Shown piece by piece: positions 37,262-42,952 of a DNA stretch of 62,329 nt. Numbering within the stretch: the stretch's first letter is position 1; each line of letters starts with the position of its first letter. The position numbers and the translations under genes are program-made. Origin of the DNA: Clostridia bacterium (GTDB lineage: Bacteria > Bacillota > Clostridia > Oscillospirales > Acutalibacteraceae). Location: the NCBI GenBank assembly GCA_017465825.1, contig JAFTVI010000022.1, positions 1 through 62,329 of the forward strand, in the 5' to 3' direction. The notes beneath the pieces were generated by a model that saw only the letters and a list, made by a program, of their open reading frames with translations, did no database searches and had not been told where the DNA came from.

Positions 37262-37290
37262 TTGACACAGCGTAATAAATTGTGATAGAC
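37262..37290 (+). promoter_or_regulatory. Candidate promoter of the attenuated ABC exporter operon
   Basis: TTGACA (37262-37267) and, 17 bases on, ATAGAC within TGTGATAGAC. The -10 is weak. It precedes the leader peptide by about 50 bases. Confidence 0.65.
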
Positions 37291-37340
37291 TTTCAATTAC
37301 TGTTAACAGAAAACTATTTTTTTGAAAGGAGATGGACAGA

Positions 37341-37391
37341 ATGATGAACAAAGCACATAATGCCGGGAATATTTTGTCCGTTTCAGAATAA
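37341..37391 (+). CDS. Sixteen-residue leader peptide of the ABC exporter operon
   Basis: MMNKAHNAGNILSVSE then stop, with a perfect ribosome site (AAAGGAG, 37325-37331) at good spacing. Codons from AAT (residue 7) onward form the 5' arm of a long hairpin that excludes the terminator at 37411-37437. Its position and structure match leader peptides of ribosome-mediated attenuators such as bmrB before bmrCD in Bacillus. The sequence itself matches none I know. Translating ribosomes reaching the stop would cover the arm, so a stall near the start would have the opposite effect. Confidence 0.72.
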   Translation: MMNKAHNAGNILSVSE

Positions 37392-37437
37392 CAGTAACGG
37401 ATAATATTGCAGTCCCGGCATTGTGTCGGGACTTTTT
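37359..37437 (+). promoter_or_regulatory. Transcription attenuator: antiterminator versus terminator
   Basis: Two exclusive structures are visible. The antiterminator pairs AATGCCGGG (37359-37367) with CCCGGCATT (37414-37422), AATATT (37368-37373) with AATATT (37403-37408), and TCCGTT (37377-37382) with AACGGA (37396-37401). The terminator pairs AGTCCCG (37411-37417) with CGGGACT (37427-37433), followed by TTTT. They share bases 37414-37417. A ribosome held at the leader start (footprint to about 37356) leaves the first arm free and favours read-through; one that finishes the leader covers the arm and favours termination. Confidence 0.8.
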
Positions 37438-37457
37438 AATTTTGAGAGGTTATGCTA

Positions 37458-39272
37458 ATGAAAAAAGAAAAAAAAGACCGTTTCGGCGTATTGAGAAATT
37501 CCTTATACGCCGCAAAAATCATAACGAAGGCATCCCCTGTTATGCTGCCGGGGTATACGCTTTCAATTTTCGGATATTTCTTCTTTGACAGGTATCTGAA
37601 AAATGTCATTTTCCTTGACAAAATGCTGGGAGTTATCACCGACGGCGGCACCTTTGAAACATTTATGAAAACTCTTATAATTTTCTGTATTGTAGGTATC
37701 GGTGCACAGTTCCTTGACTGCTTCGGTGATTATCTTTCCGCATCGGAAAACAAAAAGGTTTATAAGCTTTTAAACGAGCAGATTTTCAGAAAAGCCTGCA
37801 GCGTTGACGTCGAATGCTACGAAAACCCCAAATTCTACGACAATTACAAGCGTGCAACGGATGTTATCAACAACGATATGACGCTTGAGTTTTCCTGGTG
37901 TCTTAGCAATATGGTTGCATTTATTGTTGTCGGCGGCAGTCTTGCCTCGTACATATGCTCCGTTGACCCTAAAATTCTTTTCTTCCTTATCGGTATGGTT
38001 CCCTATGTTCTGCTGGAGTCCTTCAGGAACAAGCTCGAATACAAAAAGGATAAGGAAATGACACCCAACAACCGTAAAAAGGACTACGTTCAGCGAGTTG
38101 TATTCTTAAAGGATTTTTCAAAGGATATGCGCACCTCGGGCATATACAACGTTATGAAAACACGCTTTGAAAGAGCCGTTACAAGAAACTGTGAAATCAT
38201 AAAAAACTACGGCTGGAAAACTGCAATCATTGATGTTTTCGGCGGCTTTTTCAGCGAGATTCTTCCCATTGCAGGCACACTTATTTACGGTGTTTACGGC
38301 TTTATCAACGGCACGGTTTCCGTAGCACAGTTCGCTGTTCTCATAAGTGCAATAACAAGCCTTAAAGCTATGATTGAAAACATCGGCAGGGATCTGTCGG
38401 AAATTCAGAGAGTTTCTCTTTATTTCGGCAATTTAAGGACCTTCTTTGACTACAAAAACAGGCAGACAAACGGCTCTAAAAAAGCAGAAGAACTCAAATC
38501 GGTTGAATTCCGTAACGTAACGTTTACGTATCCAGGAGCAAAAAAGCCTTCACTTAAAAACGTATCACTCAGGGTTGATGCAAAAGAAACCATTGCAATC
38601 GTAGGCAAAAACGGCGCAGGCAAGTCCACGTTCGTAAAGCTTCTGCTTCGTTTTTACGACCCCGATGAGGGTGAAATCTTCTACAACGGCGTAAACATAA
38701 AAGAATACGATATGGAATCTCTCCGCAAGCGTGTGGGTACTGTTTTTCAGAATTACAAGGTGTTTGCACTGTCCGTTAACGAAAACGTGCTTTGCCGTGA
38801 ATGTGAAAATGACGATGACAGAGCGCACGCTGAATATGCACTTAAGAAAAGCGGTGTATTCGGTAAGATCAGCACACTTGAGAACGGTGCAGATACGGTT
38901 CTGACCCGTGAATTTGACGACAAGGGTGCAGGTCTTTCGGGCGGCGAACAGCAGAAGGTTGCGGCGGCAAGAATGTTTGCACATCCCTTTGATTTAGCCG
39001 TGCTTGACGAGCCCTCATCTGCACTTGATCCCATTGCCGAGTACAGGATGTATGAAAGTCTTATTGACGAAACAAAAAACAAAATGGTTATATACATTTC
39101 ACACAGGCTTTCAAGCGCCGTGCTGTCGGACAGAATTTATGTATTTGAAAACGGCACGGTTGCCGAATACGGCAGTCACGCTCAGCTGATGGAAAAGAAC
39201 GGCGTATATGCAGAGATGTTCACAATGCAGGCATCAAACTACAAAGACGGGGAGGAAGAAGCTGATGTTTAA
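37458..39272 (+). CDS. ABC exporter half-transporter, subunit 1
   Basis: A 604-residue fusion of an ABC membrane domain (residues about 1-330, six helices) and an ATPase domain. Walker A GKNGAGKS is near residue 390, the signature LSGGEQQKVAAAR near 495, and Walker B LAVLDEPSSALDP near 517; the switch histidine (ISHRLSS) is present. I prefer the ATG at 37458 because GAGAGG is eight bases away; the ATG at 37452 is too close. It pairs with subunit 2, whose start overlaps its stop by eight bases, suggesting a heterodimer. Both ATPase sites look complete. Placement behind a leader-peptide attenuator suggests export of a translation-inhibiting antibiotic. Confidence 0.9.
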   Translation: MKKEKKDRFGVLRNSLYAAKIITKASPVMLPGYTLSIFGYFFFDRYLKNVIFLDKMLGVITDGGTFETFMKTLIIFCIVGIGAQFLDCFGDYLSASENKKVYKLLNEQIFRKACSVDVECYENPKFYDNYKRATDVINNDMTLEFSWCLSNMVAFIVVGGSLASYICSVDPKILFFLIGMVPYVLLESFRNKLEYKKDKEMTPNNRKKDYVQRVVFLKDFSKDMRTSGIYNVMKTRFERAVTRNCEIIKNYGWKTAIIDVFGGFFSEILPIAGTLIYGVYGFINGTVSVAQFAVLISAITSLKAMIENIGRDLSEIQRVSLYFGNLRTFFDYKNRQTNGSKKAEELKSVEFRNVTFTYPGAKKPSLKNVSLRVDAKETIAIVGKNGAGKSTFVKLLLRFYDPDEGEIFYNGVNIKEYDMESLRKRVGTVFQNYKVFALSVNENVLCRECENDDDRAHAEYALKKSGVFGKISTLENGADTVLTREFDDKGAGLSGGEQQKVAAARMFAHPFDLAVLDEPSSALDPIAEYRMYESLIDETKNKMVIYISHRLSSAVLSDRIYVFENGTVAEYGSHAQLMEKNGVYAEMFTMQASNYKDGEEEADV

Positions 39273-41058
39273 GAAAAAAGAAAAAGGTCAGCACGGCGTT
39301 ATCAGTAACGTTTTCTTCCTTTTGAAAATAATGTTTCAAATTTCTCCGGGACTCGTTATCGGTGAAATTTTAACAGACATTATCACCACACTTCCCGACA
39401 AGCTCATATCCGTTATCGGTATCAAGTATGTTATTGACCAGATCGGCAAGCCAGACGGCGTACGCAACATCTTTATTGCCCTTGGCATAATGGTCGGTGT
39501 AATTATATTTGAAAACATTGTAAATGCCCTGTTCTTTGAGCTTTTTGCACACAGAGCAAGGGAAAAGATGTACTTGGGTATTCATTCAAAGCTTTATGAA
39601 AAGGCAATTTCTCTTGACCTTGCAAGCTATGACGATTCTTCATTTTACAGCGATTTCATACTTGCGATAGAAACATCGTCCGAAAATATCCGCAACATTC
39701 TCAATCTTGTAAGAGGATATGTGTCACAGATCATTGCTTTTATTTCAATAGGAACGATTATGTTCACCATTGATCCCGTATGCCTTGTGATAATTCTGTT
39801 TTTTGTTATCACATTCCTGCCCATAGGCAAGCATACAGGCAATCTGCAGATGCAACGCCGTGAAGCGATGAATGAAAAATACAGAAAAGCAAACTATTTC
39901 TCACGACTTTTCTATCTGCCCGAATTTGCAGGGGAAATGCGTATGCACTCTATCACGGGCATTTTCTTCAGGCGTTTCCGTGAAAGTGCAGACGACATTA
40001 CAAAAACACAGCGCAAATATGTAGGCAAAATCGACGGCTGGTTCTTCGTACAGGCGGTTGTTGTTCAGATAATAGGCTTTATGCTCGTACTTACCGCATA
40101 CATAGGATATCAGACGCTTGAAGTGGGGGCGCTCACGGCAAGCGACTTTGTTTCAACATTCAACGGCGCAGCGTCAATCAGCTCTTCGGTGCTTTTCCTT
40201 ACAGTTTATTCACTGCGTAATTTTACCGAGCGTTCAAAGATGATTGAAAAGTACAGAACGTTCCTGTCAACGGATTTTAAAATCAAGGACGGCGGACATA
40301 TTGCGCAGAACGGTGAGGCAAAAGATATTGAAATCAAAAACATAAGCTTTACTTATCCCGGCAACGACTCCCCTACCCTTAAAAATATCAGTATGACAAT
40401 TCATCCCGGTGAGAAAATCGCACTTGTAGGCTACAACGGCGCAGGCAAAACAACGCTTACCAATCTGTTGCTCCGTCTTTATGATGTAACAGAGGGTGAA
40501 ATCGTAATTGACGGCAGAGACATAAGGGAAGAAACCGTTACATCACACCGTGACCGCTTTGCCGCAGTATTTCAGGATTTCAAGATTTTCGGCGCAACCG
40601 TAGGCGAAAATGTGGCTCTTCAGGTGGATTACGATAAGGACAGAGTGCTTGAGGCACTGTCCCACGCAGGCTTCAGAAAAGAACTGCCCAAGGGCACGGA
40701 AACGATACTTCTCAGAGAATTCAGCGACGACGGATTATCACTCTCCGGCGGTGAGGAGCAAAAGGTGGCAATCGCGAGAGCGTTCTATAAAAAATGCCCC
40801 TATATCATACTTGATGAACCCAGTGCAAACCTTGACCCCGTTTCCGAATACGAGCTTAATCAGTCTATGATGGAGGCGGCAAAGGACAAGACGGTTATTT
40901 TTATTTCACACAGACTTTCAACAACACGCCACGCAGACAGAATATTTATGATGGAAAACGGCGAAATAGTGGAAAGAGGCTCACACGAGGAGCTGATGAA
41001 ATTAAACGGCAAGTATGCGTATATGTTTAATTTGCAGGCGGAAAAATATAAACAATAA
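39265..41058 (+). CDS. ABC exporter half-transporter, subunit 2
   Basis: A 597-residue membrane plus ATPase fusion. Six helices lie in residues about 1-320, Walker A is GYNGAGKT, the signature LSGGEEQKVAIARA, Walker B YIILDEPSANLDP, and the switch histidine is in FISHRLSTT. The ATG at 39265 lies inside the end of subunit 1 and follows GGGGAGGAAG. The protein ends YKQ and its stop is the TAA of AAACAATAA, the border of repeat R2d. It is about 30 percent alike to subunit 1 by eye, as in heterodimeric multidrug exporters. Confidence 0.9.
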   Translation: MFKKKEKGQHGVISNVFFLLKIMFQISPGLVIGEILTDIITTLPDKLISVIGIKYVIDQIGKPDGVRNIFIALGIMVGVIIFENIVNALFFELFAHRAREKMYLGIHSKLYEKAISLDLASYDDSSFYSDFILAIETSSENIRNILNLVRGYVSQIIAFISIGTIMFTIDPVCLVIILFFVITFLPIGKHTGNLQMQRREAMNEKYRKANYFSRLFYLPEFAGEMRMHSITGIFFRRFRESADDITKTQRKYVGKIDGWFFVQAVVVQIIGFMLVLTAYIGYQTLEVGALTASDFVSTFNGAASISSSVLFLTVYSLRNFTERSKMIEKYRTFLSTDFKIKDGGHIAQNGEAKDIEIKNISFTYPGNDSPTLKNISMTIHPGEKIALVGYNGAGKTTLTNLLLRLYDVTEGEIVIDGRDIREETVTSHRDRFAAVFQDFKIFGATVGENVALQVDYDKDRVLEALSHAGFRKELPKGTETILLREFSDDGLSLSGGEEQKVAIARAFYKKCPYIILDEPSANLDPVSEYELNQSMMEAAKDKTVIFISHRLSTTRHADRIFMMENGEIVERGSHEELMKLNGKYAYMFNLQAEKYKQ

Positions 41059-41275: not shown

Positions 41276-41527
41276 TTATTTTTCTTTTTTGAGTTGTTTT
41301 ACAAGCTGATTGCCGTAGACTGCCGCGCCCGTTACAAGCACGCCCTGTATTGCGGATGTTATGTTCCAGCCGCCCAGAGCCATAGCACCTACAACACCTA
41401 CAGGCAGCAAAATAACGGGTATCCATTTATCGGGAATCTTTTCGATATTCTTGATTATCTGTCCTATGACAATAAGCACGGGAATAAGTATAAGAGCGTT
41501 TTCCGTTATGTAAGTAAGAATTTCCAT
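41276..41527 (-). CDS. Phage holin-like small membrane protein
   Basis: An 83-residue protein with an outward N-terminus and two hydrophobic segments (about 10-28 and 35-68) separated by a short KNIEKIPDKW turn. It ends in a basic tail, KQLKKEK. Size, topology and the IPDKWIPVIL pattern fit Firmicutes phage holins. It would open the membrane for the lysozyme encoded at 42001. Last gene of the phage-derived operon; repeat R2e separates it from the previous gene. Confidence 0.8.
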   Translation of the reverse strand: MEILTYITENALILIPVLIVIGQIIKNIEKIPDKWIPVILLPVGVVGAMALGGWNITSAIQGVLVTGAAVYGNQLVKQLKKEK

Positions 41528-42000: not shown

Positions 42001-42777
42001 TTACTCTATCCCTGCCGAATCCCTTAAAATATGTCTTGCATCAGCGGCTGTTATGTTGCCGTCACCGTCAACATCGGCAAGTATAATTTCATCATTTGTA
42101 AGCTTTTCCGTACCGGCTGACGCTCTGAGAACCTTTCTCGCATCTGCGGCAGTGACCTTTCCGTCACCGTCCGCGTCACCTTCAACAAAGCTTGTGTAGC
42201 AGTAATTAAGGTCAAAGTTGCCCTCAAAGCCGTTGAACTTACCTGTTTTTGAATACTGCCAGATGTCGTACTTCCCATTATATGTACACTGTTTATTATA
42301 TTGTGCAATCCATTTGGGATATTCACCGTACCAGCTGTCGGTAAGATATGTATCGTACCAATACTTATTCGCATAAGTGCCGTAACGATAACCGGCGGCT
42401 GTTATTCTTTCGCAAAAAACTTTTGCTATTTCAAGAATTTTATCCTTACCGAGAGCCGAAATTCTTGATTCCTCAAGGTCAAGAAAAACAGGATAATCCG
42501 GATTATGTCCCTCGAGCAGTCTTAATACGTGCTTTGCTTCGTTTTTCGCTTTGTCAACGGTGGTTGCATAACTGTAAAGATACACGCCGTAGGGAATTTT
42601 TTTCTCCTCGCAGGCGTTCACGTTTGCAAGCCACTGCGCATCGTCCTGATTAGCGTAGTTACCGCCGTAGCCGCAACGGATGATTACAAAATCAACGTTG
42701 TTTTTCATCTTGTCCCAGTCAATTCTGCCGTTTGAATAAGAAACATCTATTCCCTTTGCAATTATATTCTTCTGCAT
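42001..42777 (-). CDS. GH25 lysozyme with C-terminal type I dockerin
   Basis: A 258-residue protein. Residues 1 to about 195 are a GH25 muramidase: GIDVSYSNGRIDW (9-21) with D11, FLDLEES (98-104) with catalytic D100 and E102, and YDIWQYS (170-176). Residues 199-258 are two dockerin repeats with calcium loops DADGDGKVTAAD (201-212) and DVDGDGNITAAD (235-246), each followed by AR-x-LR. There is no signal peptide, as expected for a holin-dependent endolysin. The ATG at 42777 follows AAGGAGATG. A cohesin-binding module on a phage-style lysin is unusual and suggests anchoring to a scaffoldin or wall protein. Confidence 0.9.
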   Translation of the reverse strand: MQKNIIAKGIDVSYSNGRIDWDKMKNNVDFVIIRCGYGGNYANQDDAQWLANVNACEEKKIPYGVYLYSYATTVDKAKNEAKHVLRLLEGHNPDYPVFLDLEESRISALGKDKILEIAKVFCERITAAGYRYGTYANKYWYDTYLTDSWYGEYPKWIAQYNKQCTYNGKYDIWQYSKTGKFNGFEGNFDLNYCYTSFVEGDADGDGKVTAADARKVLRASAGTEKLTNDEIILADVDGDGNITAADARHILRDSAGIE

Positions 42778-42778
42778 A

Positions 42779-42952
42779 TCAATCATCTCCTTCGGCAACC
42801 TTGTTGCCATACAATGCAAGAAGTTTTTCATTTATACTGCTTTCCGCCTCAGAATATTCTGCCTGTGTTATCTCCTCACAATTCTCTGAAACAGGAATTT
42901 CTGTTTCTCTTGCTTCATATATTTTTCCGTTATTTCTTTTATAGTATTTCAT
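42779..42952 (-). CDS. Small 57-residue protein of the phage-derived operon
   Basis: A frame of 57 residues beginning MKYYKRNNGKIYEAR and ending YGNKVAEGDD. Its ATG overlaps the stop of the 42952-43503 gene by one base (TAATG), and its TGA lies one base before the lysozyme start. Its last codons contain the lysozyme ribosome site. Charged and soluble. Position between a fibre-like gene and the lysin fits the small XkdX-like proteins of phages; no motif confirms this. Confidence 0.7.
   Translation of the reverse strand: MKYYKRNNGKIYEARETEIPVSENCEEITQAEYSEAESSINEKLLALYGNKVAEGDD

Follow-up and report, generated by a model that had tools for sequence, protein, structure and literature searches.

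A putative ribosome-mediated attenuator before an ABC exporter pair in a Clostridia bacterium, and related leaders before other genes

How a Clostridia bacterium (Acutalibacteraceae) might control a two-gene ABC exporter is the question raised by a short intergenic region in contig JAFTVI010000022.1 of assembly GCA_017465825.1, positions 1 to 62,329 of which make up the window analyzed here. A sequence-only reading of the window had placed a 16-codon leader ORF with a ribosome site, an antiterminator, and a terminator before the exporter, and all of these are present, as follows.

37262..37291, forward strand: candidate promoter, TTGACA, 18 nt, TAGACT, with TG before the −10 (pattern match only)
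37329..37343, forward strand: arm 1, the Shine-Dalgarno sequence and start codon of the leader ORF; its partner is arm 2
37341..37391, forward strand: leader ORF MMNKAHNAGNILSVSE, 16 codons plus stop
37358..37368, forward strand: antiterminator 5′ arm TAATGCCGGGA, starting 17 nt after the A of the start codon
37370..37384, forward strand: arm 2 TATTTTGTCCGTTTC, which codes for the ILSVS part of the leader peptide
37396..37401, forward strand: AACGGA, inner 3′ partner of TCCGTT in the antiterminator
37411..37433, forward strand: intrinsic terminator AGTCCCGGCATTGTGTCGGGACT, then a T-run
37452..39272, forward strand: first ABC exporter subunit (37458 is also a possible start)
39265..41058, forward strand: second ABC exporter subunit (the longest ORF starts at 39208)

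The leader ORF reads ATGATGAAC...GAATAA (37341-37391), with the Shine-Dalgarno motif AAAGGAG ahead of it and a second in-frame ATG following the first. Promoter-type matches show no clear excess across the region (14, against 10.1 ± 3.5 in shuffles). The gene upstream of the leader encodes a class II aminoacyl-tRNA synthetase (Pfam) and is divergently oriented, so the terminator is not that gene's own; the Shine-Dalgarno sequence of the exporter, as read from the sequence, sits outside the terminator hairpin. In erm-type translational attenuators, a hairpin covers that site of the downstream gene.

In predicted folds, the leader forms three mutually exclusive hairpins. Arm 1 pairs with arm 2 in an anti-antiterminator that sequesters the leader Shine-Dalgarno sequence, and this hairpin (37329-37343 with 37370-37384) is contained in the minimum-energy fold of the 148-nt leader (−42.8 kcal/mol versus −26.1 in shuffles, 0/200 as good). 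The antiterminator joins AATGCCGGG (37359-37367) to CCCGGCATT in its outer part and TCCGTT (37377-37382) to AACGGA (37396-37401) in its inner part; the 68-nt piece that holds it reaches −26.2 kcal/mol with 21 pairs (mean of shuffles, −11.3; 0/200 as good), in agreement with the 21-bp antiterminator read earlier from the sequence. The 5′ arm of the terminator (33-nt piece, −16.0 kcal/mol; 1/200 shuffles as good) doubles as the 3′ arm of the antiterminator. Arm 2 can pair either with arm 1 or, through its TCCGTT, with AACGGA inside the antiterminator, and because the 1:2 hairpin and the antiterminator both use TCCGTT, the order is 1:2 anti-antiterminator, 2:3 antiterminator, and 3:4 terminator. 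When the leader interior was shuffled, the 1:2 pairing was matched in 0/1000 cases and the antiterminator pairing in 8/1000. The exclusive antiterminator and terminator had been recognized from the sequence; the third hairpin, which hides the Shine-Dalgarno sequence, had gone unnoticed.

We consider it very probable that the window leader is a ribosome-mediated transcription attenuator of the vmlR/bmrB kind. In untranslated RNA, hairpin 1:2 would join the Shine-Dalgarno/start arm to the last part of the leader ORF and the terminator (3:4) would form, and during normal translation the ribosome would traverse the 16 codons and cover arm 2 at the stop, again allowing the terminator to form. A ribosome held on codons 1 to 3 (1 to 5 in many relatives) would instead cover arm 1 and leave the antiterminator arm free past its leading edge; the freed antiterminator (2:3) would capture the terminator 5′ arm, and RNA polymerase would read into the exporter. 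The exporter would thus be induced by a block right after initiation or in early elongation, most likely one imposed by ribosome-targeting antibiotics. We infer termination, read-through, translation itself, and translation inhibitors as the inducer.

Each subunit is an ABC exporter protein similar to P-glycoprotein and MsbA. The best 60 of 463 and best 60 of 482 matches in the PDB comprise P-glycoprotein, MsbA, and further ABC exporters of types B and C, and BmrCD is absent among these best 60 for either subunit; the pair reads as a generic ABCB-type exporter whose drug substrate is only putative. Elsewhere in the window, on the reverse strand, a GH25 lysozyme with a type I dockerin domain (42004-42831) adjoins a phage-type holin (41276-41524); this lysin might dock onto a cellulosome-like scaffold, or it might be a prophage lysin captured by the host.

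A first subunit is present (E ≤ 1e-150) in 7 of 11 genus genomes, the window genome included, and profile searches find exporter relatives in 44/300 family genomes (E ≤ 1e-120) and 35/394 order genomes (E ≤ 1e-150). The leader precedes a relative of 56% identity (L013) and a group of 44 to 45% identity (L014 to L017), and the leader peptides of these five loci carry ILSVS or IVSVS near the end. No leader was found in the available upstream bases of three relatives of 74 to 75% identity (L009, L011, and L010, the last with 165 upstream bases only), one of 59% (L012), and one of 45% (L018). The 75% relative in genome G004 lies downstream of another exporter pair that has the leader, and in G010 the leader likewise precedes another exporter pair (L146). 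Two exporter pairs lie near each other on contig G004:C48 (L009, L015), with the leader before the first, and on G003:C7 (L011, L018), where L018 is without it, possibly a natural loss of the leader.

We examined 98 regions upstream of related first subunits, a selection from family and order relatives, the genus, and named loci rather than all that exist (99 were assembled, and L022 was left out as an apparent duplicate of L112). Judged by reading, the device is present in 24/98 and absent from 74/98. Leader ORF and arms are conserved in some of the relatives, where the sequence changes and the logic holds. Fixed thresholds (1:2 at or below −18 and 2:3 at or below −8 kcal/mol, plus terminator, Shine-Dalgarno sequence, and ORF) are passed by 22 of the 98 regions, 18 of which are among the judged 24; L134, L172, L173, and L181 pass and were judged chance. 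The control set comprised 172 genes from the window and 20 named loci; 18 of these genes were removed as exporter or matched genes, and 2/154 pass the same thresholds (5/172 before the removal). These two are L030 and L047; at L047:1355 (forward strand), on a Bacilli contig, the leader-like ORF MKNINIYKLEVIGFFHVTVFC that passes the architecture thresholds precedes a gene. In 1,000 interior shuffles of each of the 24 leaders, with the best ORF per region picked beforehand in a way that favors both pairings, P was below 0.05 for 1:2 in 23/24 and for 2:3 in 7/24, the lone leader with 1:2 not beyond its shuffles being L133 (167/1000). The Shine-Dalgarno arm and its partner shift together across distant leaders, as in GGCGAACA:TGTTCGCC (L127), AGCGGGCG:CGCCCGCT (L128), and GGTGGACAAAA:TTTTGTCCGCC (L138). 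A fixed-pattern search of 300 family genomes returned seven matches, namely, the window, a new leader (L107), and five others that were taken by eye for chance.

A covariance model of 13 leaders (R1), which includes the 1:2 pairs and is without 2:3 pairs, gives 66 matches in 40/398 family genomes (E ≤ 0.01; about 4 expected from rough E values) and matches 8/11 genus genomes at E ≤ 0.1, one of them by a short match near the limit. Exporter genes follow the 13 strongest matches in the family genomes. Most of the others form one regular class, exemplified in the window's own genome by C9:157389-157523 (GAAAGGCAGGTGGACAAAATGAC...CGGAGTGCCGTTTTGTCCGTTTGCGATTGA...GGCATCTCCG..CGGAGGTGCC, peptide MTMIINTKTRSAVLSVCD). 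We read 58 loci of this kind and retained 54, dropping by eye four low-scoring matches as false, two within coding frames (L238, L240) and two consisting of a terminator only (L256, L257). A second model (R2), built from 33 copies with the window leader excluded, recovers the window leader at an E value of 5.3e-4 and three other genus exporter leaders at 1.0e-5 to 6.9e-3. From this reciprocal recovery, the exporter leaders and the other copies constitute one family, of putative common descent. R2 matches 7/371 class genomes, the window genome among them; four matches outside the order were judged real (L264 to L267), and two more, with a terminator only, were judged false by eye (L268, L269). 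The C9 copy and its downstream sequence (L216:1501-2442), the second member of the leader family in the window's genome, stands before a TIM-barrel gene whose product matches Pfam AP_endonuc_2 and scores 64.6 bits with the CbiR cobamide-remodeling model, under the 105-bit cutoff. This copy has no DNA match in plasmids or phages (E ≤ 1e-3), and viral contigs hold no exact match to one leader pattern.

Reading frame and spacing are retained across this wider set of 77 leaders (23 exporter leaders and 54 others; L015 was left out of 78 items, its Shine-Dalgarno sequence falling outside the start rule). A TGTCCG core lies in a single frame relative to the start in 64/64 leaders that hold it, at 11 distinct distances from the start codon (31 to 97 nt). 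The antiterminator arm begins at least 17 nt from the start codon in 77/77 leaders, in a search that permitted 9, and within 17 to 28 nt in 51/77. A ribosome stalled on a start codon is described with its leading edge at +16 to +18 in the toiL study (PMC12121999), and the vmlR study gives a stalled-ribosome toeprint at +16 (PMC9226507), so the geometry fits arrest on the first codons. The spacing in relatives therefore agrees with the earlier proposal that a ribosome arrested there would free the antiterminator arm.

We modeled this arrest by folding cut transcripts that end before the terminator 3′ arm, with a ribosome footprint at a chosen codon, pairs across the ribosome permitted, and 2:3 counted only from leader bases past the ribosome's leading edge; the 2:3 value at the stop codon is zero by construction and is not evidence. 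The 2:3 probability is at least 0.5 in 26/77 free transcripts, in 71/77 with the ribosome at codon 1, and in 7/77 at codon 6, and it increases from the free state to the codon 1 ribosome in 71/77. Mean antiterminator probability in the 23 exporter leaders is 0.27 free, 0.61 to 0.64 with the ribosome at codons 1 to 3, and 0.29 at codon 6; the corresponding values in the 54 other leaders are 0.34, 0.69 to 0.73, and 0.10. For the window, the probability is 0.81, 0.68, 0.46, and 0.04 with the ribosome at codons 1 to 4. At equilibrium and ribosome-free, the 2:3 pairing there already stands at 0.81; repression of untranslated window RNA would therefore depend on 1:2 forming first. Full-length equilibrium folding with the footprint failed to tell the states apart in most leaders, whereas the cut-transcript version succeeded; the terminator mostly prevails at full length even with a codon 1 ribosome (mean, 0.77; ribosome-free means in the two groups, 0.92 and 0.97), and the switch would therefore have to be kinetic. 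The full-length terminator probability of the window leader is 0.39 free and 0.01 to 0.06 when the ribosome occupies either of the last two codons or the stop, low values that we tentatively take to stem from pairs spanning the ribosome.

Pairing is clear in the close leader group, and covariation there is weak. For the 13 closer leaders, 88.2% of the 1:2 helix is paired (37 to 52% in slid controls), with covariation barely above shuffles (43/500 as high). In six same-genus leaders, 1:2 and terminator together are 92.0% paired (40 to 51% slid), with joint covariation equaled in 153/500 shuffles, and the antiterminator is 75% paired (22 to 52% slid), with covariation equaled in 34/500. An alignment of same-genus leaders has ACGGAT or CCGGAT as the counterpart of AACGGA. 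Across the 33 aligned copies, 95.1% of antiterminator cells are paired (34 to 54% slid; 0/500 shuffles as high), and 11 cells have changed on both sides, compared with 3.4 in shuffles (0/500 as high); further pair types number 6, not above shuffles (7.0). Antiterminator columns 55 and 120 hold GC in 22 copies, AU in 10, and AC in 1, and the terminator partner column is G in 32/33. The antiterminator pair thus switches while the terminator column stays G, so that the terminator bears a G-U and it is the antiterminator itself that is kept. Since a group among the 10 AU copies has almost the same peptide, the 10 represent few independent events, and the Fisher value for columns 55/120 is overstated. 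The 1:2 helix in the same copies is 97.3% paired (38 to 50% slid), with covariation only marginally above shuffles (equaled in 32/500). Other subclasses follow the same logic with unrelated arms, GTGAAGTCAG:CTGATTTCAC in L205, L207, and L222 and AAATCAGA:TCTGATTT in L246 to L250 and L252. Against shuffles of all 77 leaders, P is below 0.05 for 1:2 in 72/77, a count partly selected because the 54 other leaders were found with R1, and for 2:3 in 57/77, the antiterminator being not beyond shuffles in the other 20/77. Comparison of these leader sequences brings out conserved arms, frame, and spacing.

Riboswitches are typically structured leaders with a terminator and an antiterminator. Those two elements are present here too, and they could belong to a leader that binds a ligand, as a riboswitch, or a protein, with the short ORF there by chance; we nevertheless find that reading very improbable, given that conservation in the 33-copy alignment falls mainly on the start region and the pairing arms and that the reading frame is maintained through length changes. 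Moreover, neither the window leader (gathering threshold) nor any of the leaders at 20 loci (E ≤ 1) gave an Rfam match, T-box models included. Rfam searches did recover a ZMP-ZTP riboswitch elsewhere in the window (RF01750; 30033-30114, reverse strand; 61.7 bits) and a T-box-like element at L212:1759-2012 (forward strand; 87.7 bits, just under the gathering score of 93), on the other strand from a leader copy and upstream of it. That the peptide is itself a functional small protein and the hairpins merely a terminator strikes us as barely credible: its end (ILSVS, AVLSVC) is conserved, but that end is encoded by a pairing arm, and the middle varies in sequence and length.

Codon 2 (37344-37346 in the window) is Thr or Met in 66/77 leaders versus 7/171 control genes (Fisher 5e-40, relatedness ignored) and in 54/65 distinct starts. 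In the 33 aligned copies (B1), the counted 1:2 helix stops at the start codon, and in some exporter leaders it extends into codon 2. A dull candidate explanation is that Thr/Met avoids an AAA that would mispair with the TTTT arm, and in ATGATG starts either ATG may be the one used. The same bias could point to amino acid attenuation in the manner of trp or his leaders, with a ribosome pausing early in the ORF for scarce Met or Thr. We regard this as improbable, because the window leader has no single-codon runs beyond ATGATG, the leader peptides show no run of a regulated codon, and no Met/Thr synthesis or uptake, nor any matching biosynthetic gene, was recognized among the 25 of 29 Pfam families listed for 50 downstream proteins. 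A macrolide-type R/K-X-R/K stalling peptide (RNR, RTR, and KNK occur in some leaders) was rejected on inspection as a common rule, since in the B1 copies the antiterminator arm or its immediate neighborhood codes for these residues, and they vary along with the arm.

The genes behind the leaders are diverse. The 54 retained copies yield 50 downstream proteins, each taken as the longest ORF starting within 450 nt (L199, L201, L206, and L251 are without a usable downstream protein); 7/50 of these ORFs begin more than 100 nt on and may not be the first gene. Acetyltransf_1 (GNAT) is matched by 29/50 and His_Phos_1 by 4/50; GrpB, HAD hydrolase, ABC exporter, TIM-barrel, LytTR response regulator, and AAA are matched by 2/50 each, and S66 carboxypeptidase, rhomboid, and nucleoside phosphorylase by 1/50 each, in a tally where one protein may count twice. 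NCBIfam tallies include named resistance acetyltransferases as candidate matches. The device had been tied to the exporter; it does precede this one, but the copies outside exporters stand mostly before GNAT genes. The leader family, unmatched in Rfam at the leaders searched, is thus used beyond this exporter. A promoter-like sequence occurs within 60 nt upstream in 50/54 copies, a count without a chance control, and the cassette may travel together with its promoter. Because the geometry reads only a ribosome on about codons 1 to 5, whatever the cause, the switch could instead report slow departure from the start codon or scarce ribosomes under starvation or cold rather than drugs specifically; we think this unlikely, as downstream exporters and many GNAT enzymes fit toxin defense better, if weakly so.

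As in the vmlR/bmrB kind, a Shine-Dalgarno-bearing leader ORF with a kept frame (its translation putative) accompanies an intrinsic terminator, and the antiterminator shares the terminator arm and overlaps the ORF; these sequence features support the ribosome-mediated attenuation put forward in the sequence-only reading. In anatomy, the leader appears most like that of Bacillus subtilis vmlR, described as a short uORF with an anti-antiterminator, an antiterminator, and an intrinsic terminator, in which a drug-stalled ribosome on the uORF (16-nt toeprint) leads to read-through (PMC9226507). As described there, the uORF is a tripeptide, its Shine-Dalgarno sequence is single-stranded before the hairpin, and the gene is an ABC-F gene, whereas in the window a 16-codon ORF contributes its Shine-Dalgarno sequence and start codon as the anti-antiterminator arm and precedes an ABCB-type exporter pair (elsewhere often GNATs). 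The B. subtilis bmrBCD leader also places a leader ORF, terminator, and antiterminator before a two-subunit ABC exporter, and loss of leader translation is reported to lower reporter expression (PMC4191407); its ORF is 162 bp, compared with 51 bp in the window, and the likeness noted is one of architecture. The toiL uORF of Escherichia coli topAI likewise answers to ribosomes stalled on a start codon, by tetracycline or retapamulin, but unmasks a ribosome binding site and acts through Rho, the parts of that report used here describing no intrinsic-terminator switch (PMC12121999). The uORFC-6-1 motif, found mainly before hflX, is a uORF attenuator from comparative genomics and a presumed antibiotic sensor; it is described with a conserved Arg-Leu-Arg peptide and mainly one downstream gene (PMC8632094), in contrast to a family with many downstream genes and no stalling peptide common to all. 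An ABC-leader reported before a multidrug export operon in lactobacilli (PMC2965389) indicates that attenuators before exporters are already known in kind. Titles and abstract openings among the literature matches listed hold no description of the present leader family.

Taken across the family, the leader may be a portable promoter-attenuator cassette that wires unrelated genes (mostly GNATs, along with exporters, phosphatases, GrpB, and response regulators) to one signal, a ribosome halted within the first five codons of a decoy ORF, each gene having its own copy and needing no shared protein regulator; the Thr/Met at codon 2, beyond the pairing arms of most copies, would mark a site programmed for this halt and may determine the inhibitors to which the switch responds. 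We think this view about equally likely to prove right or wrong. If it is right, a bacterial group represented here chiefly by draft genomes would run a distributed translation-stress regulon by cis-acting RNA alone, and the genes that follow the switch would be candidate resistance or tolerance enzymes found by their leader instead of by homology. The leaders, in which evolution has varied arms, spacing, and codon 2, would also serve as a natural series for studying how the leading edge of an arrested ribosome controls RNA folding.
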